A stretch of DNA of 64,000 bases, taken from an uncultured Spirochaetaceae bacterium (GTDB lineage Bacteria > Spirochaetota > Spirochaetia > Sphaerochaetales > Sphaerochaetaceae). How positions within the stretch are numbered: position 1 is the stretch's first letter; each line of letters opens with the position of its first letter. The notes under the pieces are model-generated. The model was not told where the DNA came from. It saw only the letters and a list, made by a program, of their open reading frames with translations, and searched no databases. The DNA lies in NCBI GenBank assembly GCA_944389115.1, contig CALXLE010000099.1:1-64000 (forward strand), read 5' to 3'. The position numbers and the translations under genes are program-made. Below are positions 1 to 27,081 of the stretch, in pieces.

Positions 1-2715
1 CCCACTCCTGTTCGGTATCAGCCTTGTAGATGATAAGGGACTCGATGCCATCGATAGTAACGGTATCGCCGACATTGCGCTCGATAGGAACGATGAATTC
101 TGTTATATCACTGTAGATCTCGTTCCCTACATACGCCACAGCCTTGACTGTTGTACCCTCTTCCACAGCAAATGGAGTCTCATATTTTGTTCCATTTTCC
201 ATATCGGGCTCGGATCCGTCAGTCGTGTAATAGATATGGGCGAATAATGTATCAGAGGTGATTGAAGCATTGCCGTCAGATGAGAATGATATCACAGGTT
301 CAGCGACATCGAAGGTGCCGGCGATGATGGAGTCGTAATCAGAACGGGAGACACCCCAGAAGGCGTGTTTCTCGTTCTTTATAAACCAAAGGTCTTCATT
401 CCATTCTGAAGGCTGTTCAGATATCCCGCACCAAACACTTGTATTATTTGAAGGTATACTTCGATAGGATATTTCCTTTACGCTTTCAGGGATGTAAACA
501 TTCTTGATAGATGTATTATCAAAAGCTTGCCAGCTGATTTCTTCTAAGCCATCGGGGAAATCAATATCTCGGAGAATGCTACAATGCCAAAAGGCCTGAT
601 ATCCTATTGTTTTTAGTTTTTCTGGAATATTTATTTTTATAAGAGAAGAACTAAATTCAAAGCAGTGGTCTGGAATCTCCGTTAAATCGTTTGGTAATGT
701 GACCCTTTCAAGGCTTTCATTCAGCTTAAATGCATAATTTCCAATTTCTGATACATTAGCAGGAATATCAATAGCCTTGAGTGATTTACAATTATAGAAA
801 GCATTAGATCCTATTTTTATAACATTATCTGGAATATGTATATTAACCAAAGATTCACAATTTTGAAATAAGCCATAAGAAATTTCTGTAATACCATCAG
901 GAAGTTCTATGCTCTTAAGCGATGTACAATCAGCAAACGAGCTTGCTCCTAAATCAATCACGCTATCTGGAATAACTATCTTTTCAAGAGAAGAACAATT
1001 TTGAAAAACACTTCCGCCTATTTTTGTAACGCTGTCCGGAATATCTATGTTTTTTAGATTAGAGCAATATCTAAATACATCCTGCTGTATAGTTGCTACC
1101 CCTTTCTGAATACTTACATTTTCAAGAGATATACAACCACTGAATGCAGATTCCTGTATTTCTGTCACGCTGCCGGGAATACTGATATCCATAAGCGATA
1201 TACAGTCTCGAAACGCCCAGGGACCTATTTTCGTTATACCATTCGGAAGATCAATGGTTTGTAACGAGGAGCAGGATTGAAATATGCCAGATTTAAGTTC
1301 TGTCACGTTTTCTGGAATATTTATGTCCCTGAGGGCAGAACAGCTGCGAAATGCACCTGCTCCGATTGATGCTACACTATCTGGTATATCGATACTGTTC
1401 AATGAAGAACAATTCATAAATGCACTGTTGCCGATAGACGTAATACCTTCAGAAATTATAATCTGTCCCGAGATGTCTGACCTGTCCGAAAAAGCACTAT
1501 CCTTTATTGCTGTTACAGGTTTTCCCTCATAACTGGAAGGTATCTCCAATATACCATTTTCGGGCATCTCGAATATTCCCTTTGGCGCTGCAATACCTGC
1601 GACCATATAAGACTCTCCGTCTTTATTGAGAGTAAAGTTAAAAAGCTTTTCCTCAACTGTTATTCCGAGTTTTTCTACTGCAATATTCGCAGTTCCTGCC
1701 GCGATTTCTTTTCCCGGTATGTACGCAACGACTGTCAGCACATGTCTTCCACTTCCAAGATTATTAATCAAATAAGATTTCTTATCTTCTGAAGATCCTG
1801 CAGTCTCTGAAATATCAAGATGCTCTACACCATCCAGATAGTATTTGTAGCTATACGAAGCAGGAAGTTCAATCGATAGATTATCTTTATCGGTATTATA
1901 TGTTTTTCCATCAAGATCACTGACTAAAATGAGATCGCCAATAAGGTCTTCTACAGTCAGCCCCTCATCGATTTCAGGTACGGCTTCAACACCAGTAAAC
2001 TCAAGATAACCTGAAGCTGTAATATCCTTTATAAGACCTATACCATCTATTGTGGTATATATAGTTCCTTCACTATCCTTTACAGAAATAAAGAATAGAT
2101 ATTTCCCCTGCTCCATACCCTCAAGTTCAAGCTTATACAAGCCATCTCCGGCTATAGCAGATACCGGAGATTCCTTAGAACCTGCGGATGCGATGACAGA
2201 ACCGGCTTCACCTTCCATGTCCGTCACGGCATACCAGTAGCCGAACGTATCACTATCGCCAATAGATTCAGGAAGTTCAAGCGTAATGCTTATCTTCCCT
2301 GACTTGCCTTCAGCAGGTACAAGGCTGAGTTTTAGAGAATTGTATCCTTCTTTGATCTCTTTTTCCGCAGACGCTGAAGCAACCTGAACATAATCTCCGG
2401 ATCCTGTTGTATCAACATAACCCTCTGCACCTATTGTCCAGATACCTGCCCTAAGATCAGAGATAGTATATACTCCGCTTTTCGGAATATAATCTGAATG
2501 AGTATTAACTGATACGCCATCCGATATCGTTATGACGTAATGCGTGATGCCGCCATTCTCCGAGTCAGGAGCTATGAGCTTCGACTCAGGCTCCGCTACC
2601 GATACCGTCAGCGTCCCCGTGCCCTGGGGGGGGTATTCGGCTCACAGGCGATGACGCTGAATATCATGGCCATTGCCATGAAGAATGAGATAAATGCTTT
2701 GTATCGTGATTTCAT
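1..2715 (-). CDS. BspA-like leucine-rich-repeat surface lipoprotein, out of frame (3' end beyond window)
   Basis: The ATG at 2715 follows a good AGGAG ribosome site. The first 27 codons give a lipoprotein signal ending in the lipobox VIAC. After a C8 run (2633-2626) this frame stops at codon 36. One extra C would join it to an open frame that continues to the window edge. That frame encodes an N-terminal region of beta-rich, Ig-like character, then about fifteen 23-residue repeats of the pattern IPDSVTxIGxxAFxxCxSL (roughly 1560 down to 440), typical of BspA/LRR_5 proteins. A YYTTDGSEP segment follows (about 230), as in chitobiase C-terminal-like domains. Such proteins sit on the cell surface and bind host or matrix ligands (family knowledge). 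Nothing else in the frame looks decayed, so a reversible switch is more likely than a dead gene; a homopolymer sequencing error is the alternative. Whether it belongs to the mobile element is unclear. Confidence 0.8.
2626..2633. repeat. Homopolymer G8 (C8 on coding strand), candidate phase-variation tract
   Basis: Eight identical bases lie seven nucleotides beyond the lipobox cysteine codon of the BspA-like gene. With eight C the frame stops six codons later at TGA; with nine (or six) it reads into the full repeat protein. Position, length and effect fit a slipped-strand contingency locus. Confidence 0.7.
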
Positions 2716-2747
2716 ATCTTTCTCCTCTGTATAGATATATAGCGAAT

Positions 2748-2786: not shown

Positions 2787-3557
2787 TCAGTAAGATGTAA
2801 GGAGGCTCTCGGGGCTCCTCATATTGCCGTTGGCCTTCTCCATGAGCCCTGCCGTATCGGATGTCATGTTCTTTAGATACTCAATCTGGGAATCATATAG
2901 GGCAAGGTACTCAGTGGCTCTCTCGAATTCATAGAGCGAACGCTCAATCTGATCTGAAAGCCTGTTGATCCGCTCAGCCTCAGCATTCCTCTTGGAAAGG
3001 AGGATCGCAAGGTCGTCGGACATATCGCCGAACGATGACTCAAGCGCCTCGTAGTATGAGGGCGTCCTGACCTCTGCGGCCATTGCCTGGTTCCTTGTGA
3101 TCGCATTCACGGCCCATGTGCAGATCGCTCCTACGATGAACGCGATCACGGCTGCCGTGATTATCGTAGCGGTGAGTCCCATGCCGGGTATCATCCTCTT
3201 CCTGATCCCATCCCTGTTATCCATATGATCATCTCCTTCGCCCATGCAGTCCGCACTGGAAGCTGCATCAGGCTGTCTTTCTTCTTTAGTGGTCCCTTCC
3301 TTCCTGAACCAGGAAACAATGATCCTCTTCGGTATATCCAGCTTCAGCGCTATGGCAGCGGGTGTATAGCCGAGGTTCCCCAGCGCAAGGGCCTTCTCCA
3401 TGTAGTTCTCCGTGTACCAGGCCCGGATCCATCTCCATGCGGTCTCACGCGTGCAGCCGAACTCAGCTGCTATCCCTGCTGCCGTCTCCCCTTCAAGGAA
3501 GAGATCAACAGCTCTCTGCCTGTCTTCCGCGCTGAAGCGCATTCTCTCTGCTGCCAA
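2787..3557 (-). CDS. Tandem helix-turn-helix protein with a membrane segment, last gene of the virB operon
   Basis: 256 aa. The start is taken as TTG at 3557, because AGGAGG lies seven bases upstream, overlapping the end of virB10; an ATG at 3542 is the alternative. Residues 5-45 and 50-88 each look like transposase/homeodomain-type helix-turn-helix units (for example AAGIAAEFGCTRETAWRWIR, then TPAAIALKLDIPKRIIVSWF). A hydrophobic helix follows at about residues 128-152 and then a charged helical region likely to form a coiled coil. DNA-binding units on the cytoplasmic side of a membrane anchor, in an operon of channel genes, could tether DNA or sense the assembled channel; that is inference. 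I know of no standard T4SS component with this architecture. Confidence 0.75.
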   Translation of the reverse strand: MAAERMRFSAEDRQRAVDLFLEGETAAGIAAEFGCTRETAWRWIRAWYTENYMEKALALGNLGYTPAAIALKLDIPKRIIVSWFRKEGTTKEERQPDAASSADCMGEGDDHMDNRDGIRKRMIPGMGLTATIITAAVIAFIVGAICTWAVNAITRNQAMAAEVRTPSYYEALESSFGDMSDDLAILLSKRNAEAERINRLSDQIERSLYEFERATEYLALYDSQIEYLKNMTSDTAGLMEKANGNMRSPESLLTSY

Positions 3558-3558
3558 G

Positions 3559-5088
3559 CTATTCCCTCCTCAGGTCTATTGTCTGATTCACCAGAAGCTG
3601 GGTCTGGAACCCCGCCCTGATCCTTATCGTCGGCTCCCTGTCCATGATCAGGTCGATATACTTCTCGCCGAGGTTCTCGGACGTATCGAGGACGCCGGAA
3701 GCGATCAGCGAAAGGGCATCCGTGCCCATCAGGTTAGAGGCAAGCTCCGTCTGCTCGCGGACATATCCCGTGCCGAGGTTTATGACAGAGCCAAGGAACG
3801 CGCCGCCGAGTATCTCCCAGAAATGGGATGTGTACTTATCCCTGACACCTGAATAGCCCTCTCCAGTGACTCCCTGGAATCCGGGAAGGGAGAATACATA
3901 TCCATCAGGGGTTATCATCTCGCGCCATGCTATCTGGACACGCTTCTGCCCGAACGCGACGCTGTCGTTGTAGTCAGCGATCAGCCTTGTGCCCTTCGGG
4001 ATAAGGATATTGGAGCCTGTAAGGGAGTCGTAGACATTCTGCCTTACCTGCCCTATGACCTCTCCCGGAAGATCGGTGTCGATTCCCGTGATGAGGGTAA
4101 TAGGCACCACGGTCCCTGCCGTGAGGCACATATCGTCTATCTTATTGACCGTCCGGGGAACATTCTGATGCTCCTCAAGCCACTCCCTCTGGTTCTGATT
4201 GCCATTGACGCGCTCGTGTCTCTCTTCCTCTGCGCTTGGAGGCTGCTGGCTGCTTGCGGCAACCGCGCTTGAGAGGCTGTCAAGCGATGCCTGCATGCCG
4301 GATGTAAGGTCCGGCATCTGCATCCAGTCCGGATACTCGATGGGAGATTCCATATCGCCCTCGATCGAAGCGCCTCCTATGTCCGCAGCCATGCCCTGGT
4401 TCGCGCTTTCCTCCGCGGCGTTCTCTTCCTCTGCATCGCTTCTGAAGGCAGCGGCACTCGCGATGAGCTGATCCATATCAGCTCCCTCTGAGAGAAGCTC
4501 ATAGTACTTGGATGGCGTAAGTCCCTGGTCATAGATGATCCTGTAGAAGTCATCTATGGTCATATCGTATTCATCCTCGAGGATCTGTATGGTATCCGCT
4601 TCCTGCTGGTTCCGGATATCCTGTGCCGTCGGCTCCTCCTCCGGCTCAATCGTGTCCTCTATGCCTGAGAGCGCGATCCTCACCTGGCTATCGAGATCCG
4701 CAAGATCTATCGCATCATTGATTATGCCTTCCCTCTCGGTGCCGGTTATCTCCCTGATGACATTGCCGTTCCCGTCAAGGAGGTAAACAGAGCCATCCTG
4801 CATGACGCGTATCATGTTCCCATTGCTCTGGTTCATGATGATGTAGTCGGTGCCTGTCTGGTAGGTCTCCTCAATCTGTGGATCGTAGTACCTGATGGAT
4901 GAGGGGACCGGCTGCGGGACAGGGACCTCGGTATTATGAACCGAGTTATCCTTCCTGTTCTGGCCGATCATATGGATGGCTGTAGCGGCGGCAATCACGG
5001 CGATGAGGATGCCGCCGATTATGACGGCCTTCTTCATAAGCCCTTTCTTGTTCACCTGCTGTATGCTTGAGAAGCTTTCCTTCGCCAT
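3559..5088 (-). CDS. virB10: VirB10/TrbI type IV secretion core protein
   Basis: 509 aa. VirB10 spans the inner membrane and periplasm and reaches the outer-membrane core, passing energy from the ATPases to the channel. Visible here are a short cytoplasmic N-terminus, one membrane helix (about residues 20-42), a long acidic and proline-containing periplasmic stretch, and the C-terminal TrbI/VirB10 domain from about residue 325. That domain has the family pattern LTAGTVVP..., NILIPKGTRLIADY and ending in a SFxG-like helical part before DLRRE. It lies 12 bases after virB9 and two bases before the helix-turn-helix gene, so it is co-transcribed with both. Confidence 0.93.
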   Translation of the reverse strand: MAKESFSSIQQVNKKGLMKKAVIIGGILIAVIAAATAIHMIGQNRKDNSVHNTEVPVPQPVPSSIRYYDPQIEETYQTGTDYIIMNQSNGNMIRVMQDGSVYLLDGNGNVIREITGTEREGIINDAIDLADLDSQVRIALSGIEDTIEPEEEPTAQDIRNQQEADTIQILEDEYDMTIDDFYRIIYDQGLTPSKYYELLSEGADMDQLIASAAAFRSDAEEENAAEESANQGMAADIGGASIEGDMESPIEYPDWMQMPDLTSGMQASLDSLSSAVAASSQQPPSAEEERHERVNGNQNQREWLEEHQNVPRTVNKIDDMCLTAGTVVPITLITGIDTDLPGEVIGQVRQNVYDSLTGSNILIPKGTRLIADYNDSVAFGQKRVQIAWREMITPDGYVFSLPGFQGVTGEGYSGVRDKYTSHFWEILGGAFLGSVINLGTGYVREQTELASNLMGTDALSLIASGVLDTSENLGEKYIDLIMDREPTIRIRAGFQTQLLVNQTIDLRRE

Positions 5089-5100
5089 GTGCCTCTCCCC

Positions 5101-6267
5101 TTACTGGATCCTTCTGATCTCGACCTGCTCCTTCTGCCCGCTCTTGAGGATGAAGCGCTGGTCGCTCGTGAGGACGGTATCTATCTGGCAGAGATTGCCG
5201 AAGTACCTGTAGTTCACGAGGGTCTCCTCGCCGTCCCTCCTGAGATACACAGACGGGAGCTGATCCGTATTGGAGATCGAGACAGGGAACTGGATGTATG
5301 TCTTCACATCATCGGAGAAGATCGTCACAGGCTCCCATGCAGGCCTTCCCTTCGTCTTCATCGTGTAATGGTAATTGGCCTTCGAGATGTCGAACTGATA
5401 TCCATCAGCGCTGGCCGTGGTCTCCGTGAAGTCCTCCGAGACGAATGTTCCATCCGCAAGCTGTATCGGATAGCGGAACCGGAGAGCTGTCATGTAGGAA
5501 TTCTCGAACGATGCCATGCGGAAATAATATGTCCTCTCATTCGTGAGGATTATCATCGAGGTGTCGAGACCGACTTTGAGCGGGCGGATGAACAGATGCT
5601 GCACAGCCTCCCCGTTCTCAAGCGATGTGCCGAGACTGAACTGCCAGTTAGCCGTATCATTGGTGATGGGGTTGCCGTTGATCTGCTCACCGGGCTTCAG
5701 ACGGAAATCAGTGATGGCCTTCGGTGAGGTTATCACCTCATAGATGCGTCCTTCCATATAGTCATACTCAGCAATGGATTCAGCGAATGATGTCGCTGAG
5801 CCTATATACTGGAATGCCTTCGCCGTGGCATCGAGCGCGAGTGAGCCGGAAGTGGCTACTCCCTCTTCCTTTCCATAAAGGGAATCATCGAGCGTCGTGT
5901 CGACAAGCGTGTTGCCGGCAAGCAGTTCGTTCTCTATGTCATCCTTCCTCTCCTCCTGGAGAAGAAGCGATGACTGCGCCTTGCCGACGCTGTCCATCTC
6001 CGTCTCCATCTCACGGAGCGTTGTTATGTCTATGACAGGCGAGACGGTGAGATCCTCTGGCTGGATGACTGCCGACATAGGCACATCCTCGCTCAGGTTC
6101 CTGAACCTGTCGCCCTGCACGTCAATGACCTGCACGCGGCTATACGCGCCGCTGTCGAATGCCGCGCTCTGGCATGATGCGAGAAGCATCGACGCACCTG
6201 CAAGCACGGCGAGAGCCGCAGCCATGCGGCCCCTCTCTGCTTTTCCTCTTCGGTTTACCATCTTCAT
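5101..6267 (-). CDS. virB9: VirB9/TrbG-like outer-membrane core protein with its own lipobox
   Basis: 388 aa. It forms the outer-membrane core of the T4SS together with VirB10. The N-terminus is basic, then hydrophobic, then a lipobox LLASC (cysteine near residue 32), so it is probably a lipoprotein. The C-terminal half is the beta-rich VirB9/CagX region, with the family-like run of LFIRPLKVGLDTSMIILTNE, YYFRMAS and a C-terminal RYFGNLCQIDTV segment. Its ATG overlaps the stop of virB8 (ATGA), indicating translational coupling. No separate VirB7 lipoprotein was found in the window, so lipidated VirB9 may fill that role (inference). Confidence 0.88.
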   Translation of the reverse strand: MKMVNRRGKAERGRMAAALAVLAGASMLLASCQSAAFDSGAYSRVQVIDVQGDRFRNLSEDVPMSAVIQPEDLTVSPVIDITTLREMETEMDSVGKAQSSLLLQEERKDDIENELLAGNTLVDTTLDDSLYGKEEGVATSGSLALDATAKAFQYIGSATSFAESIAEYDYMEGRIYEVITSPKAITDFRLKPGEQINGNPITNDTANWQFSLGTSLENGEAVQHLFIRPLKVGLDTSMIILTNERTYYFRMASFENSYMTALRFRYPIQLADGTFVSEDFTETTASADGYQFDISKANYHYTMKTKGRPAWEPVTIFSDDVKTYIQFPVSISNTDQLPSVYLRRDGEETLVNYRYFGNLCQIDTVLTSDQRFILKSGQKEQVEIRRIQ

Positions 6268-6917
6268 ATAAGCTCCCTGAGAAGTGAGATATCGAAATCT
6301 GTGACATACATGCCGATAGGGTTGTCTATCCTCTTCCTCTCCGTATCGGGCGTATAGAACGCCACCGTGAATATGCCTTCGTACTGGCTGTCGCCGAGTA
6401 TGCGGTTATCATTCCTGCGGTATGTGGTCTCCCTCCATGAGACGCGCCACTGCGTAGGGCTGTACTGGACAATGCTTATCTCCTCAGAAGGGATCCTCAC
6501 ATACTCCTCAGCTGATCTCTCGATGGGGTTGTTGGCCATATACCAGTCATTGAGCTTCCGCGAGGCCTGGCTGAGAGTCTTGGCGAACACGACGCCAGCA
6601 TTCTCCTGGTTGCGGTAATTGTCTATAGAGACGGTTCTCATCCTCGTGACGAAATCGCGCATGAAATAGCGCTGCGTCGCATCGTTCGGCGTCCAGTCCT
6701 CAAGAAGCTTCACGGCATCAGGATAGTAGGTAGCCTGTCCGTCCTGCGTGAGCTCTATGACCCATGGAACGCTCTTTGGAAGCGTCCCAAGATACAATGC
6801 GATCCCGACGAGGACCGCGATGAAGGCTGCAAGGCAGATTATCACGACCTTCTGCAGCCTCATGATGAGCTCATAGCGGCCCAGTATATCAGCCGCGTTT
6901 CCTTTCTCCTTCCTCAT
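6264..6917 (-). CDS. virB8: VirB8/TrbF inner-membrane assembly factor
   Basis: 217 aa, the usual size for the family. A short cytoplasmic tail is followed by one membrane helix (about residues 24-44) and a periplasmic NTF2-like domain. The domain shows the family-type segments YFMRDFVTRMRTVSIDNYRN, PTQWRVSWRETTY and a final GMYVTDFDIS. VirB8 nucleates assembly of the channel and contacts VirB9 and VirB10. It overlaps virB9 at its end and starts exactly at the virB11 stop, so the four genes are one translationally linked unit. Confidence 0.92.
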   Translation of the reverse strand: MRKEKGNAADILGRYELIMRLQKVVIICLAAFIAVLVGIALYLGTLPKSVPWVIELTQDGQATYYPDAVKLLEDWTPNDATQRYFMRDFVTRMRTVSIDNYRNQENAGVVFAKTLSQASRKLNDWYMANNPIERSAEEYVRIPSEEISIVQYSPTQWRVSWRETTYRRNDNRILGDSQYEGIFTVAFYTPDTERKRIDNPIGMYVTDFDISLLRELI

Positions 6918-8941
6918 CAGTCAATACTCCTGTTGTTCCTGACATCAAGCAGGTCGACGACCTTCCTCTTATTCGACTTCGGCAGTCGGTCCATCTGGAC
7001 AACCACATCGACAGCCGTCTTTATCATCTCCATCTGGCTGGATACGGAAACCTCGCCGCAGAGCTGATCAAGCCTGCTGAATACATCATGCGTGTTATTG
7101 GCATGTATGGTCGTTATCCCGCCGGGATGTCCCGTATTCCATGCCTTGAGCATCTCAAGGGCCTGATTGCCGAAGCGGCACTCCCCTATGAGGATCCTCG
7201 TGGGCCTCTGCCTGAGGCTGTCGCCGATCGCATCAAGATATGTGTAATCCCTGTTGACGAGCACCTTCAGCACATTCGGCTGCGAGAACATGAGCTCATT
7301 GACATCCTCGATGCAGATTATGCGCTCAGATCTGTCTATGAGCGTGCAGAGGGTATTGGCGAAGGTTGTCTTTCCCGAATTCCTCTGCACCATGAAATTC
7401 CTCATGAGATAGAGATGGTTCCCTGTCACCGTTATGCCGTAGAAATCGTCCTCGCCGGCCTCTTCCACGGTGAACTCCGTGATATTCCTGAACGGCTCCG
7501 GCCGGCTGTCCTCCGGGCGGTATCTGTTCCATGATACACGGCAAGGGATGCGCTCAAGGTCTCCCTGTATGGCAACCCTAGAGCCTACGGTGACACGCTC
7601 CCCTGTCACAGGATCCCTGTCCTCCGCCTTCCTCGGCTTCACAGTGGCGCGGAATCCGAGCGACCTTGCAACAAATGCAAGATCCTCCGCGAACTCCAGG
7701 GAACGCATATCGATCTTATATTGATGCTTTCTCCTTGAAAGCGTCCCCCGTGAATCGATGATGCCCGCAAGGAGCTTCATGCGGTCCTCGGCAGGAGCAA
7801 GGCTATAAGCCTCTGGGATGCGCCTGTGCTTCAGGTCCCATGGCTCGATCCACGCGCCATAGCGCCTGAACGCGTTCCTGTATTCCTCCATGCCTGCCTC
7901 TCTCATGGCCCTGTCATGCATTCCCCTGTCAAAGAGGACGAGGCAGTCGGTATATCCGTTCCTATGGGGATGCCTCATCTCAAGAAGCTTCCATCCCCTT
8001 GACTCAATCCATCTCCTGTATTCCTTCACGCATTCATTGCGGATGATGCACCTGAATGACTGGGATGTATCCGCGAGGTTTCCCTCAAGAAGCAGCAGTC
8101 CCATGACATACGGAGGAATCTCCAGATCCTCCGAGATCTTTCTGAACTCTTTCACACCGCTGCAGAAATAGAGGAAATGCCCTTTCCGGAACCGCTCATC
8201 CATATGGATATAATCCTTTACAGGGATCTCGATGTGCTCCTTTCCATCTGCATCGGTAAGCGGGAGATAATGCCCGGCGTTCACGATAAGGGCATCGCCA
8301 TGCTTCGGGATGATCCTGTACATCATCTCACGTCCCCTGTGAAGCTCAATGACCTCGCGTGGTGTGCCGTCATCGCCCATGACAAGATCGCCTGCAGCCA
8401 CATCCTCAATCCTCTTCTCGGAGCCGTTAGCCATGAGGATCCGTGTTCCCTTCGCATGGCAGCCTGTGCCACCGGAGAATATGATGTTCTTATGCGAGTC
8501 AATGGCTTCCCTGAGGAATTCCATCTGGGATTCCGTTATAGTCCCGCCCTCTACCATCTTCTCCGGGGATATGACGACAGGATTTGGCTTCCTCATCACA
8601 AGGGATATGTTGTTCACCGCAGGCCTCATCACGAAATTCGCGCGGAGATTCATCCGCGGAATGACGACATTGAGGCTCTGGTTCTTCTCATTGTTGACCT
8701 GCTGATTCCAGTAGGATGCGAGTATAAGGGCTGCACCATAGATCCCCTTCTGGCTGAGCCTGCATGGCACCTCGCGTATCGTATCGGAATCCACGAAGAC
8801 AAATCCCTTCTCATAGCAGTCGGGATTGACCATGATATCCGACCAGCCTGGCATATCTATGATGCGGCAGAGGTCAGGCCCGAAGCCTGCCCTGACATCA
8901 TTGTATACCTGCTCCATCGTTATCCTACCTGAAATCGGCAT
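6917..8941 (-). CDS. virB11: VirB11/TrbB traffic ATPase precursor interrupted by an intein in its Walker A loop
   Basis: 674 aa as translated. Removing residues 161-521 leaves 313 residues, close to the normal VirB11 size. VirB11 is a hexameric cytoplasmic ATPase powering pilus assembly and substrate export. The N-extein ends in GGTG and the C-extein begins SGKTT, so splicing restores a perfect P-loop GGTGSGKTT. Downstream come ICIEDVNELMF (Walker B/Asp box-like), LRQRPTRILIGECRF and GHPGGITTIHANN, all family hallmarks. Without splicing the ATPase cannot bind nucleotide, so channel power depends on intein excision. It is the first gene of the virB11-8-9-10 unit; a TATAAT lies 28 bases upstream and AAAGGA serves as ribosome site. 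Confidence 0.95.
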   Translation of the reverse strand: MPISGRITMEQVYNDVRAGFGPDLCRIIDMPGWSDIMVNPDCYEKGFVFVDSDTIREVPCRLSQKGIYGAALILASYWNQQVNNEKNQSLNVVIPRMNLRANFVMRPAVNNISLVMRKPNPVVISPEKMVEGGTITESQMEFLREAIDSHKNIIFSGGTGCHAKGTRILMANGSEKRIEDVAAGDLVMGDDGTPREVIELHRGREMMYRIIPKHGDALIVNAGHYLPLTDADGKEHIEIPVKDYIHMDERFRKGHFLYFCSGVKEFRKISEDLEIPPYVMGLLLLEGNLADTSQSFRCIIRNECVKEYRRWIESRGWKLLEMRHPHRNGYTDCLVLFDRGMHDRAMREAGMEEYRNAFRRYGAWIEPWDLKHRRIPEAYSLAPAEDRMKLLAGIIDSRGTLSRRKHQYKIDMRSLEFAEDLAFVARSLGFRATVKPRKAEDRDPVTGERVTVGSRVAIQGDLERIPCRVSWNRYRPEDSRPEPFRNITEFTVEEAGEDDFYGITVTGNHLYLMRNFMVQRNSGKTTFANTLCTLIDRSERIICIEDVNELMFSQPNVLKVLVNRDYTYLDAIGDSLRQRPTRILIGECRFGNQALEMLKAWNTGHPGGITTIHANNTHDVFSRLDQLCGEVSVSSQMEMIKTAVDVVVQMDRLPKSNKRKVVDLLDVRNNRSID
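7379..8461 (-). other. Intein (361 aa) with degenerate LAGLIDADG homing endonuclease, in virB11
   Basis: It starts with Cys161 (CHAKGTRILMANG, with the GDLVMGDDG turn typical of Hint block A) and has a block B-like NAGHYLP with the expected histidine. It ends ...GNHLYLMRNFMVQRN with terminal Asn521, followed by Ser522 as +1 nucleophile. The residue before the terminal Asn is Arg rather than the common His. Two dodecapeptide motifs of the endonuclease core are visible: VMGLLLLEGN (residues 279-288) and LLAGIIDSRG (390-399). The acidic position is Glu in the first and Arg in the second, so cleavage activity may be reduced to nicking or lost. The protein-splicing residues look intact. Confidence 0.93.
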
Positions 8942-9538: not shown

Positions 9539-9701
9539 CCTCCTCTATCGTGGCCCTGACATATTCAGCCACGGACCTGTTCTCCTGCTGCGCCTTGTCG
9601 ACGATGCACTTGTATGTACCGTCCTTGACGCGGAAGGCAATGTTCCTCGTAAGCTTGTCCTCCTGCCTCTTCCGGGGACGGCTCCGCCAGTTCTCATCCA
9701 T
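9522..9701 (-). CDS. Small ribbon-helix-helix protein (59 aa)
   Basis: The frame opens with an ATG whose A is the last base of the virD4 stop codon (TGATG overlap) and ends by overlapping the next gene (ATGAGTGA). Residues about 16-55 read as a strand (LTRNIAFRVKDGTY) and two helices (CIVDKAQQENRS, AEYVRATIEED), the ribbon-helix-helix pattern. The lysine/arginine-rich start suits DNA binding. It is probably a second relaxosome or autoregulatory protein. The perfect coupling on both sides supports it as a real gene despite its size. Confidence 0.7.
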   Translation of the reverse strand: MDENWRSRPRKRQEDKLTRNIAFRVKDGTYKCIVDKAQQENRSVAEYVRATIEEDVGNE

Positions 9702-12112
9702 CAGCGGTCTCCTTCGGGGCTATCCATGAACCAGCCAGCGATATCGTCGATGTCATACTCGGCAAGGTGCGATGCATCCCCGAGAGAATCGATGGCAGCC
9801 TCTTCAGCGGCGTCCTCATCCGGATCGTCTGTGCTGTCATTGATATAGTCATCAGACCGCCCGATGATCGGGTCGCCGGCATCCTTCCTCTTCTCTTCAT
9901 CCTTTCCGCTCTCGACCTCTGCTGTGTAATCGCCGTCATGGAGCTTCGCGGCGCCTTTGAGCGCGTGCCAGCCCTCGTTGTCCACGCCTTCGTTCACTCC
10001 ATCATGGATTGCTTCCGGATGCGGATAGTTGTCGTTTATATCAGGCGGAGGAAGAGTCCTTCCATCCTTATCCTTATAGAGCCTCGTGAAGCGCGGATCC
10101 ATGTAATACCTGATCTTCTTCGCCTTATACGGATGCTCTCCGGAAGAGATGATGATGCACTCGTTATCATCCATCGTCCTTATCTCCTCCGCGGTCATGA
10201 GCGATCTGCCGACCTCTGAGACCGAGATATTCGCATTGGGCTTGGATATGAGATCCACGTTGCCCGAATACCCGGTCGACTTATGCTGCTTGGTAGCCTG
10301 TCCGAGTATCCTCTCTATCTTCTGGCATGTGCTGTCATCATTGACGCGGAGGATCACCTGATACGCGAAGTTGTCGGTGAATATCGACTCCGACTGGTAC
10401 AGGACCTTGAGCTGGTCATACGACTGTATCGCGACGGCGCAGAGGACGCCGTAGCCCGCGGAAAGCGCGAGCGCCTTCTCGACGATATCCATCTTCCCGA
10501 GCTGCCTGAACTCATCGAAGATCAGGAGGAGCCTGTATGGCCGCTTCGAATCAAGGTCCCTTGTGAGGAGCGTGATCGCCTGCTCATAGAATATCTTGAT
10601 AAGCGGGACAAGGCGCTGGATGGACGAGAGGGATACGCAGAGATACAGCGATAGCGGTGCCCTGTTGCCCTTCTCGTCAACGATGCCATGGACGAAGTCC
10701 TCCATCGTGAAATCCGAGCGGTCAGTTATTGCCTGGACATTCGGATCTGATATGACATTGAAATGCGATGTCATCGTGGAGAGCGTCGAGGAAAGCTGCT
10801 TGTCCTCGCATTCGCTGAAATAGACAAGATCCTTCTCTATCTCCCTTAGCGTCGCGACATCATCATCCGAAAGATATCCTTCGGAGCGCTTCTTCAGCTC
10901 GCGCTCCCTCCTGCTGATATCATTGAGCCTCTTCTCCACGGATACCGGGACGGAATCCCTGTCATATCCCCTGGCAGCCTTCTCCGCCTCCGCCTTCTCT
11001 TCCTCCAGCTTATCCCATTCATCGCGGATCTCCTCAGGATACTGCCCTGTCCTGATATACTGCTGGATGCGCTTGACGTAGTACTTCAGGTACCTCTTGA
11101 CCATAAGGAGGCCCTGATCCTCCTCGGTCTCAACAGCATCCTCAAGGACCTGGTAGTTCGAGAATATCGATGCGATCTGGGCGAAGTTCTTATGCTCGGG
11201 TGGCTCGCAGTATATGACGTATCCGCAGACAGCGGAGAAGAGCTTCCTCGCCTCGTTGTCCCAGAAAGGCTCCTTCGACTGCTCGTTGTTCGGGATGAGG
11301 ATATACGCAAGGTTCTGTATATCCGGTATTGCCTGCTTTCCTCTCCTTATCGCGAGAAGGGGATTGTAGTGTATCGACTCATCAGGCTTTTCCGGCCTGA
11401 ACTGGAATGTATATGAGAACCGTGCCCTGCAGGATGCGGAGATCTCCCAGGACTCGGCCTTCGGGTCGAGTATGATAAGCGATTCCGGCCACTGGAAAGT
11501 CGTAGGGATGAGGACTGAGACACCCTTTCCGGAACGCGTTGATCCGACAACGAGCGTATGCGCGTTCTTGCTCTGGGTTATGAGGTCGCCAGGCTTCTCG
11601 AACCTGTACTCAGTCTCCTTCCTGTCCCATTTCTCAAGCCTTGCCTTGTAATCAGGGCGGCTCTCCCCCTTCTTCCGCTTCGGCTTCCTTATCCGCACCT
11701 TCCTGTAGACCGCATCGAATGTCTGCCCAAGGACAAGCCCCTGCTTCTTCAGGAGCCCCGCGGATCTCAGGTCGTTCTTCGTTGCCCACTTGGATGAGCC
11801 ATGGAGGGTTGTCTTCCGGTTCGCGAATAGGCGGAATATGCGGGATGTCGTAAGGGAAAGGACCAGCCATATGAACGCGGAGAGAGCGACCATGGCAACG
11901 CATTCCCACGAAGATCCCTCGAATGCCCTTATGCCCTCTTCCATCACATAGACGAATGTCTCCCCGGGCGAGAAGAGCCATATCCGGAAACTCCCTATGG
12001 ATACTATCCTTATCGTCTCCGGGATCATATAGTAATTCCAGCCGCAGAGGCATATGAGCACGGCTATGCCCAGATACATAAGCGGCAGCAGTATCCTCAG
12101 CGCTATAAGCAT
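9701..12112 (-). CDS. virD4: VirD4/TraG type IV coupling protein
   Basis: 803 aa. The coupling protein is the inner-membrane ATPase that hands the relaxase-DNA complex to the channel. Two membrane helices (about residues 5-28 and 70-92) precede the TraG signature HGSSKWATKNDL. Walker A is GSTRSGKG (190-197), followed by IILDPKAESWE, and Walker B lies in LLLIFDEFRQLGKM. Residues about 345-425 form a charged insertion rich in E, K and R, longer than in typical TraG and possibly a coiled coil. The acidic C-terminal tail (DDYINDSTDDPDEDAAEEAA) may recruit substrates with basic tails (inference). A GGAGGGAAGG ribosome site precedes the ATG, nine bases after the relaxase stop. Confidence 0.95.
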   Translation of the reverse strand: MLIALRILLPLMYLGIAVLICLCGWNYYMIPETIRIVSIGSFRIWLFSPGETFVYVMEEGIRAFEGSSWECVAMVALSAFIWLVLSLTTSRIFRLFANRKTTLHGSSKWATKNDLRSAGLLKKQGLVLGQTFDAVYRKVRIRKPKRKKGESRPDYKARLEKWDRKETEYRFEKPGDLITQSKNAHTLVVGSTRSGKGVSVLIPTTFQWPESLIILDPKAESWEISASCRARFSYTFQFRPEKPDESIHYNPLLAIRRGKQAIPDIQNLAYILIPNNEQSKEPFWDNEARKLFSAVCGYVIYCEPPEHKNFAQIASIFSNYQVLEDAVETEEDQGLLMVKRYLKYYVKRIQQYIRTGQYPEEIRDEWDKLEEEKAEAEKAARGYDRDSVPVSVEKRLNDISRRERELKKRSEGYLSDDDVATLREIEKDLVYFSECEDKQLSSTLSTMTSHFNVISDPNVQAITDRSDFTMEDFVHGIVDEKGNRAPLSLYLCVSLSSIQRLVPLIKIFYEQAITLLTRDLDSKRPYRLLLIFDEFRQLGKMDIVEKALALSAGYGVLCAVAIQSYDQLKVLYQSESIFTDNFAYQVILRVNDDSTCQKIERILGQATKQHKSTGYSGNVDLISKPNANISVSEVGRSLMTAEEIRTMDDNECIIISSGEHPYKAKKIRYYMDPRFTRLYKDKDGRTLPPPDINDNYPHPEAIHDGVNEGVDNEGWHALKGAAKLHDGDYTAEVESGKDEEKRKDAGDPIIGRSDDYINDSTDDPDEDAAEEAAIDSLGDASHLAEYDIDDIAGWFMDSPEGDR

Positions 12113-12121
12113 CCTTCCCTC

Positions 12122-13624
12122 CTAATCCCTTGCCTTCTTCCTCAGGTTCTGCCATGTCAGCAGCTTCGGAACCTTCCCGTCCTTGAGGAAGCCGACCTTC
12201 GCGAACTGCCCATCGATGGCACTGCGGTCAAGCTCTGCAGGGATCTCATCCTCCAGCACATGGAGCTTCCCTTTCTCGTCCACGATGCTGAAGATATATG
12301 AATCCGGATCCTCATCAGAGATCCGGTGGCTGACGATGCGCCCTGAATACGGGACGAAATCATCACCCGTTCCTTCCACGACGACCTTGTCAGCATCGTC
12401 CATGTCTATTCCTGCCCGCTCCATCTTCAGATGCTTCTGGAGCTCGGCATCCCAGTCCTTGTCAAGCCACCATCCGTGGATTGCGCTGTCATATCTGACC
12501 CTGCCACCGGAATGCCTGCCGAGGTATGTGAGGCGGCGCCTGAGGATGTTCCTCATCTCCTTATCGCGCTTCTTCATATCCTCGAAGGTTATGCAGTACC
12601 TGTCTCCCTCCCTGTGGTTGAGGATATGTATCTGATGGTCGATATAGGAATAGGACCTGTTCTCCACGAGCTTCCTGGATATCTCCATGGCTTCCTCGAC
12701 GGACCGTTCCCCCATGAAATCGGTGAGTATGCGTCCAGCATCCCTGAAGGCCTTCTGCTTCCTGACATAATCCCTGCTGAAGCGGAGATAGCCGTTTCTT
12801 CCTGCCCTTGCGCCCTTCTCCATAGGAACCCGGGAAACAAGGATATGGACATGCGGATGCTCTGTGTTGTAATGGTTCGCGGCGAACCACAGGGACGTTG
12901 AACTGCCGATAGCCGGGAAGAATGAATCCTTCATGAAGCGGCATGCAAGCTCCGAGAGGTCGACATTGCTGTCCTCGGGAGAGAGGATGATGCGGAATAC
13001 GGGCTTGTCCCCGAGCCTGTCGATCACCCTCTCGTTCCTGATGAATACCTTCTCGCCCTTGCTGTTGTATGTATATACAGCCTGGTCCCTGACAGCTTCC
13101 TCATAATATGGCTTCGGCCTGATCGCGGCCTCTTCCCTCGAGATATAGGCAACCTTTGCCGCGTTGCTTCTGGCGGTATCAGGCCCGGATCTGTCCGAAT
13201 AGGTTATCTTCACAAGGCATCTTCTCTGTCCGCCGGAGATAGCCTTCTTCAGATGCGCTGCTGTGGAACGCTTTGCTGTCCTCGATGCATGCGGAGAGCT
13301 GCCAGCGGCAGGAGCAGAAGCCCCGCGGCGCTTCCCGCCCGGCCTTCTGATGCCCGAGAGCTCGGCCTGTCTTGAGAGCGGTCTTGCCGGATTGCTGGCA
13401 CCGCCTGAATGCCCGTAGTATGATGCGTTCTTCCGGCTTCTGTCCGGCTGCTTCGAATGAAGCCCCGCCTTGAAGCCATACGAGACAAGCCAGAAGTCCT
13501 CCGCGCCTCTCCTTATCGGGCGGCGTGAGGATATGTGGCCATCGAGCTCCCCGGACATATCAAGCGATATATCGCGTCCCTTGTAATGGACATCGAGAGG
13601 CCTTACAAGCGAGAGTGTCCTCAT
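12122..13624 (-). CDS. MobA/VirD2-type relaxase
   Basis: 500 aa. It nicks oriT and pilots the strand through the T4SS. The metal-binding histidine cluster is HYNTEHPHVH (residues 251-260), the 3H motif of VirD2/RP4 TraI-type relaxases. The likely nucleophile is Tyr160 in AAKVAYISREE, by analogy with this subgroup. A 130-residue basic, low-complexity N-terminal extension (rich in R, S, G, A) precedes the nuclease domain and is unusual; it may bind DNA. The C-terminus is a beta-rich region that may contact DNA or the coupling protein, ending in a basic NLRKKARD. The start overlaps the virB4 stop (ATGA). Confidence 0.88.
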   Translation of the reverse strand: MRTLSLVRPLDVHYKGRDISLDMSGELDGHISSRRPIRRGAEDFWLVSYGFKAGLHSKQPDRSRKNASYYGHSGGASNPARPLSRQAELSGIRRPGGKRRGASAPAAGSSPHASRTAKRSTAAHLKKAISGGQRRCLVKITYSDRSGPDTARSNAAKVAYISREEAAIRPKPYYEEAVRDQAVYTYNSKGEKVFIRNERVIDRLGDKPVFRIILSPEDSNVDLSELACRFMKDSFFPAIGSSTSLWFAANHYNTEHPHVHILVSRVPMEKGARAGRNGYLRFSRDYVRKQKAFRDAGRILTDFMGERSVEEAMEISRKLVENRSYSYIDHQIHILNHREGDRYCITFEDMKKRDKEMRNILRRRLTYLGRHSGGRVRYDSAIHGWWLDKDWDAELQKHLKMERAGIDMDDADKVVVEGTGDDFVPYSGRIVSHRISDEDPDSYIFSIVDEKGKLHVLEDEIPAELDRSAIDGQFAKVGFLKDGKVPKLLTWQNLRKKARD

Positions 13625-15951
13625 CGGCCATCCCTCGCGATCCTCTCGAGCTGATAGCCATCAAGGTCGAATCTTACAAGGGCAGAGCCCTCTTCCTGCT
13701 TTATGAAATACTCGCTCTTCCTCTCAGCGTTGCCGATGACGGTTATCTCATCATCAGAACATCCCATCTTCCTGTAGAGCTCCTTTATCGCCTCTGAGCC
13801 GCCTTCCCTCACGGTGCTGTTCGGGAGGAATATCTCCGTATGGCACGATGTCAGGAACTCCTCGAAATCATCGATATCGCTTATGTTCTGGAGTGCGAAG
13901 ATGACGAATACGTTCTTCTTCCTGAGCGTCTTCAGCCATTCCTTGATCTTCCTGCGGAACACTGGATGCGAAAGAAATTTCCAGGCCTCGTCGAGGATCA
14001 ACAGGGACGGCTTCGGATCGGCATCGAAGAGCTCATCCATACGGTCGAACATGAACTGCAGCGCCGGGAGCACCGCCTCATTGCCGAGGTTCATCAGAGG
14101 CCCCATCTCTATCATGGTCTTCCTCCTGAACGAATCCTTGTTGAACTCATCCGTCTCGCCTCCGAAGAGCTTCGAGAGATCGCTGTCATCGAGGATCTTC
14201 TGGAGCGCGGGGAGCGCGAGAGACATCGGGTTATAGCCCCTGAGGCGCTGGGTGAAGCGCTCAACCGTAGGCGGAAGCGACTCATCCCATTCACGGCAGA
14301 CAGCCATGAGCTCCTCGGAGATATCCGGGGTAAGCGTTATGTTCGATGAGATTATGACGGTCTCAAGCCAGTTCACTGCCTGCGACGGCTTCGTCATTAT
14401 GCGCGAAAGCGGCATGAAGGAGAGCCTGCTGCCCTCGGCTGTGGGGATATACACTGCTCCGCCTGTTCTCTCACAGAGATTCCGGAAGGACATATCCTTA
14501 TCGAAGAGTATCACGCGGGAATCCGGGTATCTCGCCCACTGGGATGCAAGGAACGCGAGGAGTATGGACTTGCCGGAGCCCGTGGCACCGACTATGACCG
14601 TATGCCCGACATCGTCCTTCGGACCATTGAGATTCAGGAAATACAGCTCATTCGTGATGAGCTTACCTATCGCATGGGGCCAGCCCACGCCGGAGATGCT
14701 CTTCAGGAAGTGGTTTATATTGCTTCCATGATACATGTCCGTAAATGGTATGATATGTGAGATATTCGATGCCGTAACCCAGGGTTTCCTGCGGTTGGAA
14801 AGGCTGTCTCCCGGAAGCGATGACTTCCATGCCGGGAAGTTCGACGTGCTGTCCTCCGTGATGGCATCGAATCCTACGGAGCTTATGACCCTCTTCGTGA
14901 TCGCGACCATATCCTTCAGACGCTCAATATCCTCATCCATGAGGATGACCGTGCTTGTAAGCTCACCGATCGTCTCGCCTGTCGTAAGGTCATACATCAC
15001 CTGCTGCATGTCCTCGACATCCGTTTCGGCCTGCGCCTCGACGACACCGGAATCCTTGCCGGTGGATGTCTCATAGAACACTGTCTTCCAGCTCTTCATG
15101 CCGGAGCGGTAGGCCTGCTGCATCTTCTTAGCCTCGGCCTGGGACTCGAAGTTGTTCCTTGGTATCCACCTTGTGACCCATCTGAAGCAGAACGGGAGCG
15201 CGAGAAGGCCGACGAGAATGTTCGGATATGTCCTTGACGGGAATGAGTTGATTGTCAGGGCCTGGAGATACTTGTCTCCATAGACCATGGGCTGGCCCTT
15301 CTGCATGAACTTCGTTGAAAGGTAATCCGAGAGGTTCCCCATCCCGTTCTCAGGGCACTGGTATTCCGCGAGATCCGTACCTGTCATGTACTTGAGGAAG
15401 TCCATGATGCTGCAAGGCCCCTCTCCATCGCATGTAAGGGCGATCGGGCGCGCGTTGATCGTACGGAGCGTCGACTCGAAGTTTATGAATACATTCTCCG
15501 CGTGCTTCCTCGACTTTTCCGTTATGCCTGTCGATTCGAGCTTGACCTCGCACTTGCACACGGCGAAGTTGCGGTTGAGCATATTCCGGCTAGAATCGCT
15601 GAATATGTCATTGCGGTGGAGCTCTATCTCCAGATCCGCATCATGCATGTTGTCCGCGCCGGATATCACAGGATCGACGACGACTGTCATAGGGATCCTT
15701 TCCATGACGAACCAGTAGGCGATCTTCGTCACCTTCTGGTCATCCTCATGCTGCTGGAACGTACGGGCTATCCTGTCCGATATCTCATCACAGCTGACCG
15801 TATCCATGGCGGAATCCGGGTACTGGACATACCAGACCTTCATGAGGCCCCAGTCCTTGGTGAGCACAGTCCCGTCTGGATTGAGCTCCTGATACGGAAG
15901 CGCGTCCGCGACCCTTTCGCGTGGCTTCCCATGCCTGCCGAATAGACCCAT
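13621..15951 (-). CDS. virB4: VirB4/TrbE conjugation ATPase
   Basis: 776 aa from ATG 15951, chosen for AGGAG nine bases upstream; an in-frame TTG lies 18 bases earlier. VirB4 is the largest T4SS ATPase, located at the inner membrane and needed for pilus biogenesis and transport. Walker A is GATGSGKS (about 455-462); Walker B is LLILDEAWKFL near 665, followed by the family's VFRRKIKEWLKTLRKKN and IFALQN. The N-terminal CagE/TrbE-like part runs through about residue 400. It directly follows virB3 and its stop overlaps the relaxase start. Confidence 0.95.
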   Translation of the reverse strand: MGLFGRHGKPRERVADALPYQELNPDGTVLTKDWGLMKVWYVQYPDSAMDTVSCDEISDRIARTFQQHEDDQKVTKIAYWFVMERIPMTVVVDPVISGADNMHDADLEIELHRNDIFSDSSRNMLNRNFAVCKCEVKLESTGITEKSRKHAENVFINFESTLRTINARPIALTCDGEGPCSIMDFLKYMTGTDLAEYQCPENGMGNLSDYLSTKFMQKGQPMVYGDKYLQALTINSFPSRTYPNILVGLLALPFCFRWVTRWIPRNNFESQAEAKKMQQAYRSGMKSWKTVFYETSTGKDSGVVEAQAETDVEDMQQVMYDLTTGETIGELTSTVILMDEDIERLKDMVAITKRVISSVGFDAITEDSTSNFPAWKSSLPGDSLSNRRKPWVTASNISHIIPFTDMYHGSNINHFLKSISGVGWPHAIGKLITNELYFLNLNGPKDDVGHTVIVGATGSGKSILLAFLASQWARYPDSRVILFDKDMSFRNLCERTGGAVYIPTAEGSRLSFMPLSRIMTKPSQAVNWLETVIISSNITLTPDISEELMAVCREWDESLPPTVERFTQRLRGYNPMSLALPALQKILDDSDLSKLFGGETDEFNKDSFRRKTMIEMGPLMNLGNEAVLPALQFMFDRMDELFDADPKPSLLILDEAWKFLSHPVFRRKIKEWLKTLRKKNVFVIFALQNISDIDDFEEFLTSCHTEIFLPNSTVREGGSEAIKELYRKMGCSDDEITVIGNAERKSEYFIKQEEGSALVRFDLDGYQLERIARDGR

Positions 15952-16044
15952 TATGAATTCTCCTGTCAATCAGATAAGCCGGATGAACCGGCTATGCCCC
16001 GAGGCCGGTGTGCCGGCATCCGGGCATAGGGACCAGCCCCGGCC

Positions 16045-16290
16045 TCATGGCTCGAGATACTGGTCCTCCTTTATCGCGTCCATATAGTTCGCCAGCCAGT
16101 ACTCGTCTTTCCTGAACTTGTATCTGAGATACAGATGGACGATGACTCCCGGCACTATCAGCTCCCAGAGGAACCCCGTAAGCACGAATACCATGATCGG
16201 TATCAGGTAGCATGGAAGCACCAGGAGCGCTGGCGCTCCCATCTGGTGAAAGCTCTTCGTGAGTGCTCTCGCCAATCTTGATTCCCTCAT
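16045..16290 (-). CDS. virB3: VirB3/TrbD inner-membrane protein
   Basis: 81 aa. An AGGAGGGTGC ribosome site precedes the ATG. The protein has a short basic N-terminus, two adjacent hydrophobic helices (about residues 19-58) and a polar tail with RYKFRKDEYWLANYMDA, the usual VirB3 shape. VirB3 works with VirB4 at the inner membrane, and here it lies immediately upstream of virB4. Confidence 0.88.
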   Translation of the reverse strand: MRESRLARALTKSFHQMGAPALLVLPCYLIPIMVFVLTGFLWELIVPGVIVHLYLRYKFRKDEYWLANYMDAIKEDQYLEP

Positions 16291-16299
16291 GCACCCTCC

Positions 16300-16698
16300 T
16301 CAGAGAAGATATCCCCTGGCATAGCCGGAACCGGTCGATGCGCTCGTGATCCCGGTGATATGCATCAGGAGCAGCGAGAAGAACATCACGACGAACACAG
16401 TGATGAGGAACTTGATCACAGCCTTCTTGATATTCTCCATCTCGTGGTTTGACGTCAGATAGGCCCTGACTATGTCGAAGATGAACTTGCTCGCGACAAG
16501 TCCTCCCGCTGCTGCGGAGAGGACTATCGACTCAAAGAAGCTCAGAGGAAGGGCGAACGGATTCCTTGTAGGTGATCCATTTACATTGCGTGCATCGCCG
16601 AGCCCTGGAGCGGTCCCGGATCCATCGGCCGCCCACAGAGGAGCGGCAACGATGAAAAGGACAGCCAGGATGGCGAGTGTCTTACCAGCCTTCCCCAT
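16300..16698 (-). CDS. virB2: Second VirB2/TrbC-like pilin candidate
   Basis: 132 aa. The signal peptide ends near PLWA-AD, then two hydrophobic helices (about residues 53-77 and 92-117) are joined by a short charged turn (TSNHEMENIKKA), the standard VirB2 plan. It ends ARGYLL. An AGGAGG lies upstream of the ATG. It differs strongly from the other pilin copy, so the two are not recent duplicates. One may form the pilus and the other a membrane or channel form (inference). Confidence 0.78.
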   Translation of the reverse strand: MGKAGKTLAILAVLFIVAAPLWAADGSGTAPGLGDARNVNGSPTRNPFALPLSFFESIVLSAAAGGLVASKFIFDIVRAYLTSNHEMENIKKAVIKFLITVFVVMFFSLLLMHITGITSASTGSGYARGYLL

Positions 16699-16708
16699 AC
16701 CAGCCTCC

Positions 16709-17149
16709 TCAGAGGGAAGTCAGCGCTGTCTTAACAGCATAGCCTGCTGCCTTGAGGGCATCGAGGCTGACCGACTCTCCTGTGAGTCCCTCGAAGAACT
16801 GGCCTGTAGCGAGACCACCGCCTGCAGTATCCGATGCGGATGAGCCGAATACGAACTGCACGAGGACTACATAGAGAACGATGACGCCGACTGTGACGAC
16901 AAGGCCGATGATGGCCTTCTGGAGCCTCGTCGGATCCTGCTCGCGGTGCATCATGGCATTGACGACATCGATCACGAACTTGCAGGTGACGATGATGCCG
17001 GGGATGATACCTGTGCAGAGTATCATGATCTGCTTGATCGGATTGACCGACATGCTTCCCATTCCGTCTATTGTCGTGGATTCTGCGAAAACCGGCACTG
17101 CGATTGCCAGCAGCGCAGCCATAAGGATGATGAATCTCTTCTTATTCAT
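16709..17149 (-). CDS. virB2: VirB2/TrbC-like pilin
   Basis: 146 aa. It has a signal peptide (cleavage after PVFA likely), two membrane helices (IMILCTGIIPGIIVTCKFVI and AIIGLVVTVGVIVLYVVLV), a turn with MMHREQDPTRLQ, and a glycine/alanine-rich tail. VirB2-family proteins are the pilus subunits. The ATG overlaps the stop of traF, so peptidase and pilin are translationally coupled, as expected if TraF processes this pilin. Confidence 0.82.
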   Translation of the reverse strand: MNKKRFIILMAALLAIAVPVFAESTTIDGMGSMSVNPIKQIMILCTGIIPGIIVTCKFVIDVVNAMMHREQDPTRLQKAIIGLVVTVGVIVLYVVLVQFVFGSSASDTAGGGLATGQFFEGLTGESVSLDALKAAGYAVKTALTSL

Positions 17150-17559
17150 TCTGCATCTCCTATTGAAATCTGTGATTTATCAATTCCCGGAAACCGGGTG
17201 TTTTCCTCTTTCACAAGCACGGGCACAAGCTCGGCTTTTATGTATTCAGGGCCTACGAGCCCATAGAATGTCGAATCATATGAAAGCGGGGTGTCGCCCT
17301 GAAGCTCATAGAGCCCATCGGGAGAAACGGATGCTACGCGCTTCGCGAGATTCCCATCCGAATGCGTCCCGAGATACCCCCTGACCATAGGGGAATCCGC
17401 CTGGACTATATCGCCTTCGGCTATGTTCCAGGCCGGAAGCCTGAGATAGAAGCCGATGGGAAGGCTGTCGGTATAGTTATATGGGAAGAGAACGCCCAGA
17501 AAAGCCACCGCAAGCATCGTGGCAACCGCAAATGGAAGAACTGCTATCATCCGCATCAT
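17146..17559 (-). CDS. traF: TraF-type S26 signal peptidase (pilin maturation)
   Basis: 137 aa. One N-terminal membrane helix (about residues 4-24) is followed by the S26 catalytic serine in TDSLPIGFYLR and the general-base lysine in NLAKRVASV. The end FYGLVGPEYIKAELVPVL resembles the box E region of TraF. In RP4 the homologous TraF cuts and cyclises the TrbC pilin; a similar task is likely here given that the next two genes are pilins. ATG and stop overlaps on both sides place it firmly in the operon. Confidence 0.86.
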   Translation of the reverse strand: MMRMIAVLPFAVATMLAVAFLGVLFPYNYTDSLPIGFYLRLPAWNIAEGDIVQADSPMVRGYLGTHSDGNLAKRVASVSPDGLYELQGDTPLSYDSTFYGLVGPEYIKAELVPVLVKEENTRFPGIDKSQISIGDAE

Positions 17560-19137: not shown

Positions 19138-19179
19138 TCCGCCTTCGTTACAGTTTTATCATCTGTAAACTTTTCATTC

Positions 19180-19185
19180 ATTATA
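19180..19185 (-). promoter_or_regulatory. -10-like element TATAAT for the main transfer operon
   Basis: ACGCTATAATGAATG on the minus strand ends 43 bases before the 245-aa gene. No convincing -35 is visible at 16-18 bases. It shares CTATAAT with five other sites in the element. The surrounding 130 bases between this operon and the 926-aa gene are AT-rich and otherwise empty. Confidence 0.55.
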
Positions 19186-19266
19186 GCGTTAACCATAATA
19201 AATAGCAAATCCATGCCGCTATAAAATACGAACAGGGATTATGTGGAACAGCTATGGTTCGGAGTC

Positions 19267-22047: not shown

Positions 22048-22063
22048 AATACCAATCCTCCTA

Positions 22064-27007: not shown

Positions 27008-27051
27008 AATCCATGTCCTCCTCGCCGTCCAGCGGCTTCACCTTTATTTGA

Positions 27052-27081
27052 ATAATACTGCAATATATGAAAAGATTTCAA
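27052..27081 (-). promoter_or_regulatory. Promoter for the giant-protein operon
   Basis: TTGAAA (27081-27076), an 18-base spacer and TATTAT (27057-27052) read leftwards to the ATG at 27007. It lies back-to-back with a rightward TATAAT at 27092. Confidence 0.55.

Follow-up and report, generated by a model that had tools for sequence, protein, structure and literature searches.

The frame break of the lipoprotein gene

The locus described here raises the question of whether a lipoprotein gene, whose leader and body lie in different reading frames on either side of a run of eight cytosines, is decayed, wrongly assembled or reversibly switched off. The gene is found at one end of the window, i.e., the initial 64 kb of a contig of 80.6 kb that belongs to a 2.47-Mb draft genome; its features and those of its surroundings are listed in Table 1. 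On the minus strand, the ATG at 2715 is preceded by AGAGGAGAAAGAT, and the leader frame is translated as MKSRYKAFISFFMAMAMIFSVIACEPNTPPRARGR followed by a stop; it is formed by MKSRYKAFISFFMAMAMIFSVIACEPNTPP, then by RARGR, and it ends just past the C8 tract. Inspection of the translation revealed a signal peptide and the lipobox FSVIAC, and export and lipidation of the product are predicted accordingly. After the tract, the body frame begins with QGTGTLTVSVAEPESKLIAPD and covers 880 residues between its stop and contig position 1, with no further stop. The 875 codons that follow C8 are one base out of register with the leader and are otherwise undamaged. Because the gene runs off the start of the contig, its 3' end, and hence the C-terminus of the protein, lies outside the assembled sequence, and the intactness of the frame was read up to contig position 1.

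The preliminary description of this region had already noticed the lipobox start, the one-base displacement caused by C8 from a long leucine-rich-repeat (LRR)/BspA frame with no other damage, and the OFF state of the sequenced copy, for which nine or six C would restore the frame. All of these observations hold: the leader and body frames are unjoined at a tract length of 8 and are joined if the tract is one base longer or two bases shorter. As in a contingency gene, the length of the tract decides between a 35-aa product and an open body of 875 codons.

Table 1. Coordinates of the features of the lipoprotein gene and of the neighbouring conjugative element in the window
Feature	Position	Strand	Basis
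Body frame, 880 aa stop to stop, open to contig edge	2..2641	-	Open-ended ORF
Fn3_assoc / chitobiase C-terminal-like domain	95..262	-	Pfam PF13287, PF13290
BspA-type LRR_5 repeat region (minimum extent)	776..1372	-	Pfam PF13306, PF13855
N-terminal domain, lipoprotein family, no Pfam match	1961..2623	-	Genome search and alignment; six further matches in genome, 35-42% identity
Leader frame as sequenced: 35-aa truncated product, signal peptide and lipobox	2608..2715	-	Translation
C8 homopolymer, proposed switch	2626..2633	-	Sequence; reads G8 on + strand
Lipobox cysteine (FSVIAC), predicted lipidation site	2644..2646	-	Translation; paralogue lipoboxes align
Ribosome-binding site AGAGGAGAAAGAT	2716..2728	-	Sequence
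Type IV secretion genes upstream of lipoprotein	2787..8941	-	Pfam: HTH/coiled-coil protein, VirB10/TrbI, VirB9/CagX, VirB8, VirB11 with intein
Other conjugative-element genes	9701..42434	-	Pfam: VirD4-type coupling protein, TraG/VirB4-like ATPase, MobA/VirD2-type relaxase, PIF1-like helicase, tyrosine integrase
Tyrosine integrase	41037-42434	-	Pfam

The body of the protein and its paralogues

The body contains the LRR_5 (TpLRR) repeats by which a BspA-like protein is recognised (PF13306, E 7.5e-105 in Pfam). Its first 221 residues match two sister genomes and, besides the gene itself, the six loci of the same genome given in Table 1. In the intact paralogues, a separate lipobox stands a short way ahead of the same body start, by a few residues, as in CNPNTNNSAVNGTASLSVSISDALDSKLIQPD and CDPAVDNTAGGTGTLSVSWEDNTEAKLIGP, and the junction of the window gene reads CEPNTPP followed by QGTGTLTVSVAEPESKLIAPD. 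Since the paralogues align across the C8 junction, the leader and the body are parts of one gene in which the register alone is wrong. The closest paralogue, on contig C51, shares the combination of LRR_5 and Fn3_assoc/chitobiase C-terminal-like domains (Pfam) and has an intact frame. In the alignment, the closest intact paralogues (on contig C51, the first copy on contig C67, and on contig C151) have no tract at the position that it occupies in the window gene. No orthologue of this gene was detected in the GTDB contigs, in the viral contigs or in the other genomes of the genus, where distant matches at the level of paralogues were obtained in two genomes only. The G+C content at third codon positions is 34% in the lipoprotein body versus 61% in the neighbouring genes, which suggests that the body is a foreign or an unusually biased gene.

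The genomic setting

The lipoprotein gene lies beside a conjugative element, given that the genes for VirB10, VirB9, VirB8, VirB11, VirD4, a relaxase and a tyrosine integrase lie behind it; from this arrangement, the gene itself is perhaps carried on the integrated element. No tRNA was found. A search of the sister genomes for the corresponding site beside type IV genes showed that a neighbouring protein of 256 aa is present in this genome only, being absent from the other 47 genomes of the genus. The P-loop of the VirB11 ATPase (6917-8941, minus strand) is interrupted by an intein, which carries Hint and homing-endonuclease domains (PF05203, PF05204).

The cargo of conjugative elements often decays, and the position of the gene at the edge of this one would suit an ordinary, recent frameshift, that is, a pseudogene in early decay in which switching is not reversible. 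The same could be said of a frame break for which no ON allele of the locus was found among the GTDB contigs, the viral contigs and the genomes of the genus. Nevertheless, the 875 codons have acquired no second lesion, the gene has a single long homopolymer with which the break coincides exactly, and this place immediately past the lipobox also bears tracts in relatives. On this balance we regard early decay as unlikely.

The C8 tract and chance expectation

C8 is the only run of C or G of at least 8 bases in the 64-kb window, and the whole genome has 25 of them. When the body was shuffled synonymously 2,000 times, the longest G/C run always measured 4-6 bases (2,000/2,000) and no shuffle reached 8 (0/2,000); in the real body the longest is 4. 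CCC accounts for only 15% of the proline codons in the neighbouring genes. Genome-wide, roughly 2 to 12 runs of at least 8 are expected under Markov models of order 2 to 4, versus the 25 observed. The model of order 1 predicts approx. 65, above the observed number; however, this model exaggerates long runs, as it takes no account of the observed drop between runs of 4 and runs of 6. The C8 tract is therefore longer than expected by chance.

G/C tracts in the genome

A census of the 25 tracts, carried out with pattern searches and fetched regions, revealed that about 22 of them belong to lipoprotein genes, 17 in upstream and 5 in coding positions; the other three (contigs C66, C147 and C162) have no clear assignment. 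A crude lipobox screen detects just 4 of the 46 ORFs in the window, and for this reason the enrichment is very unlikely to have arisen by chance: the probability that at least 20 of 25 tracts lie on lipoprotein genes is 2e-10 even with a background of 20%, a figure to be read knowing that the tracts are partly dependent, i.e., that some are copied promoters.

The 17 upstream tracts are located within about 20-65 nt of the lipoprotein ATG and are mostly poly-G between a TTGACA -35 element and a -10 element. The exact TTGACA is present 7-12 nt before the G tract in 14 of the 17, with TAnnnT directly after it in most; judged by these motifs, the upstream tract is poly-G that fills the spacer of a putative sigma-70-type promoter. 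Two promoter copies, otherwise identical over 184 bp, have G10 on contig C6 versus G9 on contig C48. One segment comprising promoter and signal peptide is nearly identical at four loci (L009, L015, L019 and L026, on contigs C6, C48, C70 and C131) with tract lengths of 10, 9, 9 and 9, respectively, and the contigs break there. The window tract was also considered as a member of this promoter class, similar to tp0126, and was rejected, as it lies in coding sequence with no adjacent TTGACA on either strand.

The five coding tracts are found in the window gene and in lipoprotein genes of contigs C13 (within the signal peptide), C47, C67 and C149. The last of these, a G8, is one substitution away from the interrupted GGGGAGGG of its 91% paralogue; it may be due to chance and was downgraded as a strong example.

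Some of these data bear on whether the frame break is an error of sequencing or assembly, i.e., whether practically all cells in fact carry an in-frame tract from which one base is missing in the consensus. Indels in a consensus fall most commonly in homopolymers, the lipoprotein gene is at a contig end, and data from a single genome look the same under error and under switching. On the other hand, this assembly also has tracts of 8-9 that are in frame (contigs C13, C47 and C67), and the large number of contigs, together with the fact that contig C131 ends on its tract, suggests a short-read de Bruijn assembly, where a C8 would normally be read correctly. Considering also that OFF registers appear independently in sister species (see below), such an error has in our opinion a small probability.

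Promoter tracts across the genus and beyond

Over 1.5 kb, the sister genome G033 shows 100% identity with Candidatus Ornithospirochaeta stercoripullorum, and on this basis the genus was identified as Candidatus Ornithospirochaeta. Of the 48 genomes of the genus, 34 contain the poly-G promoter pattern, and a reversed control pattern gave 0 matches. Between TTGACA and the point where the G tract ends, the distance ranges over 15-21 (mode 18), a figure that is biased by a scan in which the tract was fixed at 8 plus TA. In the genome under study (G000) and in 33 other genomes of the genus (L009-L033, L051-L080), the arrangement is TTGACA-N-Gn-TAnnnT, with a G tract of 8-12 directly before the -10 element. 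In G000 this set lies almost always upstream of lipoprotein genes; its members are candidate phase-variable promoters throughout the genus.

Poly-G spacer promoters of the same kind were also observed in some assemblies of gut Bacilli/Bacillota (L081, L084, L087, L092 and L116), which are distant from the spirochaetes, with 13-26 pattern matches per genome, some of them overlapping. In the sister genome G061, three contig ends (L172, L174 and L180) carry a nearly identical upstream flank of 32 bases plus G9, followed by three different downstream sequences, as if flank and tract formed a repeated or recombining promoter cassette.

Coding tracts in sister species

Genes related to those described above carry tracts in ON as well as OFF registers, as expected of contingency genes. 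The lipoprotein of contig C13 and its orthologues, from four species in all, have a tract in the signal peptide that is ON with G8 in G000 and ON with G7 in genomes G032 and G069; in genome G009 the tract is also G8 and the gene is OFF, since the ATG frame misses the lipobox frame. A second case, on contig C14 of genome G020, has an anatomy like that of the window gene: a lipoprotein leader with a lipobox, MKRGKILFVFLCLLAVLFPSCNGDNTSPEAKGGINVRINNSVENS, is followed by G10, and a body of 503 aa is out of frame (OFF). Its N-terminal relative on contig C13 of genome G063 (E 7e-6) is in frame (ON), with a G8 that adjoins the lipobox cysteine; this protein also matches the profile of the family of the window gene (E 1.8e-6). 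Two more lipoproteins with tracts, both in frame, were found in genome G062.

The same comparison bears on recoding, i.e., on the idea that ribosomal frameshifting or transcriptional slippage on C8 yields some full-length protein. Homopolymers can be slippery for the polymerase and for the ribosome, and recoded genes do look like a frame break with an intact body; however, transcriptional slippage usually takes place at A/T runs (PMC3711429) and here the run is of C. Moreover, the related tracts vary in register and position and are often in frame, so the frame break is not conserved in the way that programmed frameshifts are. Recoding thus seems very improbable.

Other tracts in sister species are found in genes that, as judged by eye, resemble those of type I specificity subunits, helicases and sugar transferases, classes in which phase variation is known from other bacteria. 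In genome G020, a frame similar to a type I specificity subunit (L194:955-2825, minus strand) ends at a G8 and continues in another frame; from its sequence, this locus is a candidate phase-variable restriction system, and phase variation of such systems has been described (PMC5476646). In genome G063 (L202:1533-3101, minus strand), an intein-like start (FPCFAAGTLVLTENGYKPIDEITEGD) is fused to a sequence similar to a DNA methyltransferase, with two G tracts of 8-9.

Proposed explanation

The explanation that we consider quite likely is the one advanced in the preliminary description, namely slipped-strand phase variation of a BspA-type LRR lipoprotein of which the assembled C8 copy is OFF. It is supported, strongly though indirectly, by the concentration of tracts on lipoprotein genes and by the ON and OFF tracts of sister species (the contig C13 series and the gene on contig C14 of genome G020). 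According to this proposal, the gene would encode a large BspA-type leucine-rich-repeat lipoprotein, presumably exposed at the surface of the gut spirochaete, and slipped-strand mispairing in the poly-C just past the lipidated cysteine would switch its expression on and off. The C8 allele would be OFF and would yield only the signal-sequence peptide of 35 residues, and the full-length protein would be made at tract lengths that match the register. The tract at 2626-2633, known from one assembled allele, is presumed to vary in length in real time, and the protein could have a role in adhesion or in the interaction with the immune system.

Because lipoproteins of sister gut spirochaetes carry tracts both ON and OFF, the window gene most likely belongs, as one switch among others, to a large phase-variable surface repertoire. 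In this repertoire of phase-variable lipoproteins, of which the window gene would be one locus, the coding tracts would provide translational switching and the poly-G promoter spacers transcriptional switching. More generally, it is likely that the members of Candidatus Ornithospirochaeta, which are uncultured gut commensals, run large repertoires of surface lipoproteins by simple-repeat switching at two levels simultaneously: poly-G in -35/-10 spacers, which in some genomes involves more than a dozen promoters, and poly-G/C that lies within the first codons of other lipoproteins, including the BspA-like gene beside the conjugative element.

Simple-repeat phase variation is known mostly from pathogens. 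Here, a whole genus of gut spirochaetes represented by metagenome assemblies only seems to phase-vary its lipoproteins in promoters as well as in coding regions, and this genus-wide scale is of more interest than the single locus of the window. Surface bet-hedging becomes in this way testable in existing metagenome reads without culture. These genes also carry a warning, in that annotation will drop genes with tracts or call them pseudogenes, and assemblies break at the tracts. Candidatus Ornithospirochaeta was not named in any title or abstract found in our literature search.

Comparison with known systems

Coding poly-C and poly-G tracts characterise contingency genes of Neisseria, Helicobacter and Campylobacter. 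The switch proposed for the window gene is of the same type, i.e., one in which slipped-strand mispairing close to the 5' end of a surface gene turns its translation ON or OFF, although the proteins and the lineages are unrelated.

A closer precedent is that of Candidatus Mycoplasma girerdii, where phase-variable BspA-like genes are switched by CA repeats (PMC5476646). As observed or proposed in the present case, BspA-like LRR surface proteins undergo frameshifts caused by repeat length, the assembled majority allele is often OFF, the data come from metagenomes, and HsdS genes are affected too (PMC5476646). The differences are that in Ca. M. girerdii the repeats are CA dinucleotides whose length variants were counted in reads (PMC5476646), whereas the window gene encodes a spirochaete lipoprotein, has a mononucleotide tract of C, and is known from one assembled allele.

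Within the spirochaetes, G tracts switch surface genes at the poly-G loci tprE/G/J, tprL and tp0126 of Treponema pallidum (PMC7864442). The likeness lies in the surface proteins and in the G tracts of variable length, about 7-11 bases, and the tract of tp0126 is located between the -35 and -10 elements, like the promoter class of this genome (PMC7864442). In T. pallidum, however, the proteins are outer-membrane proteins (Tpr and an OmpW homologue) and the tracts are mainly in promoters (PMC7864442), in contrast to the coding tract of the window lipoprotein. The idea is therefore not new in kind, since BspA-like CA-repeat switching and T. pallidum poly-G switching have already been described; the new part seems to be how many loci are involved and the use of tracts both in promoters and in coding regions, within a commensal genus.
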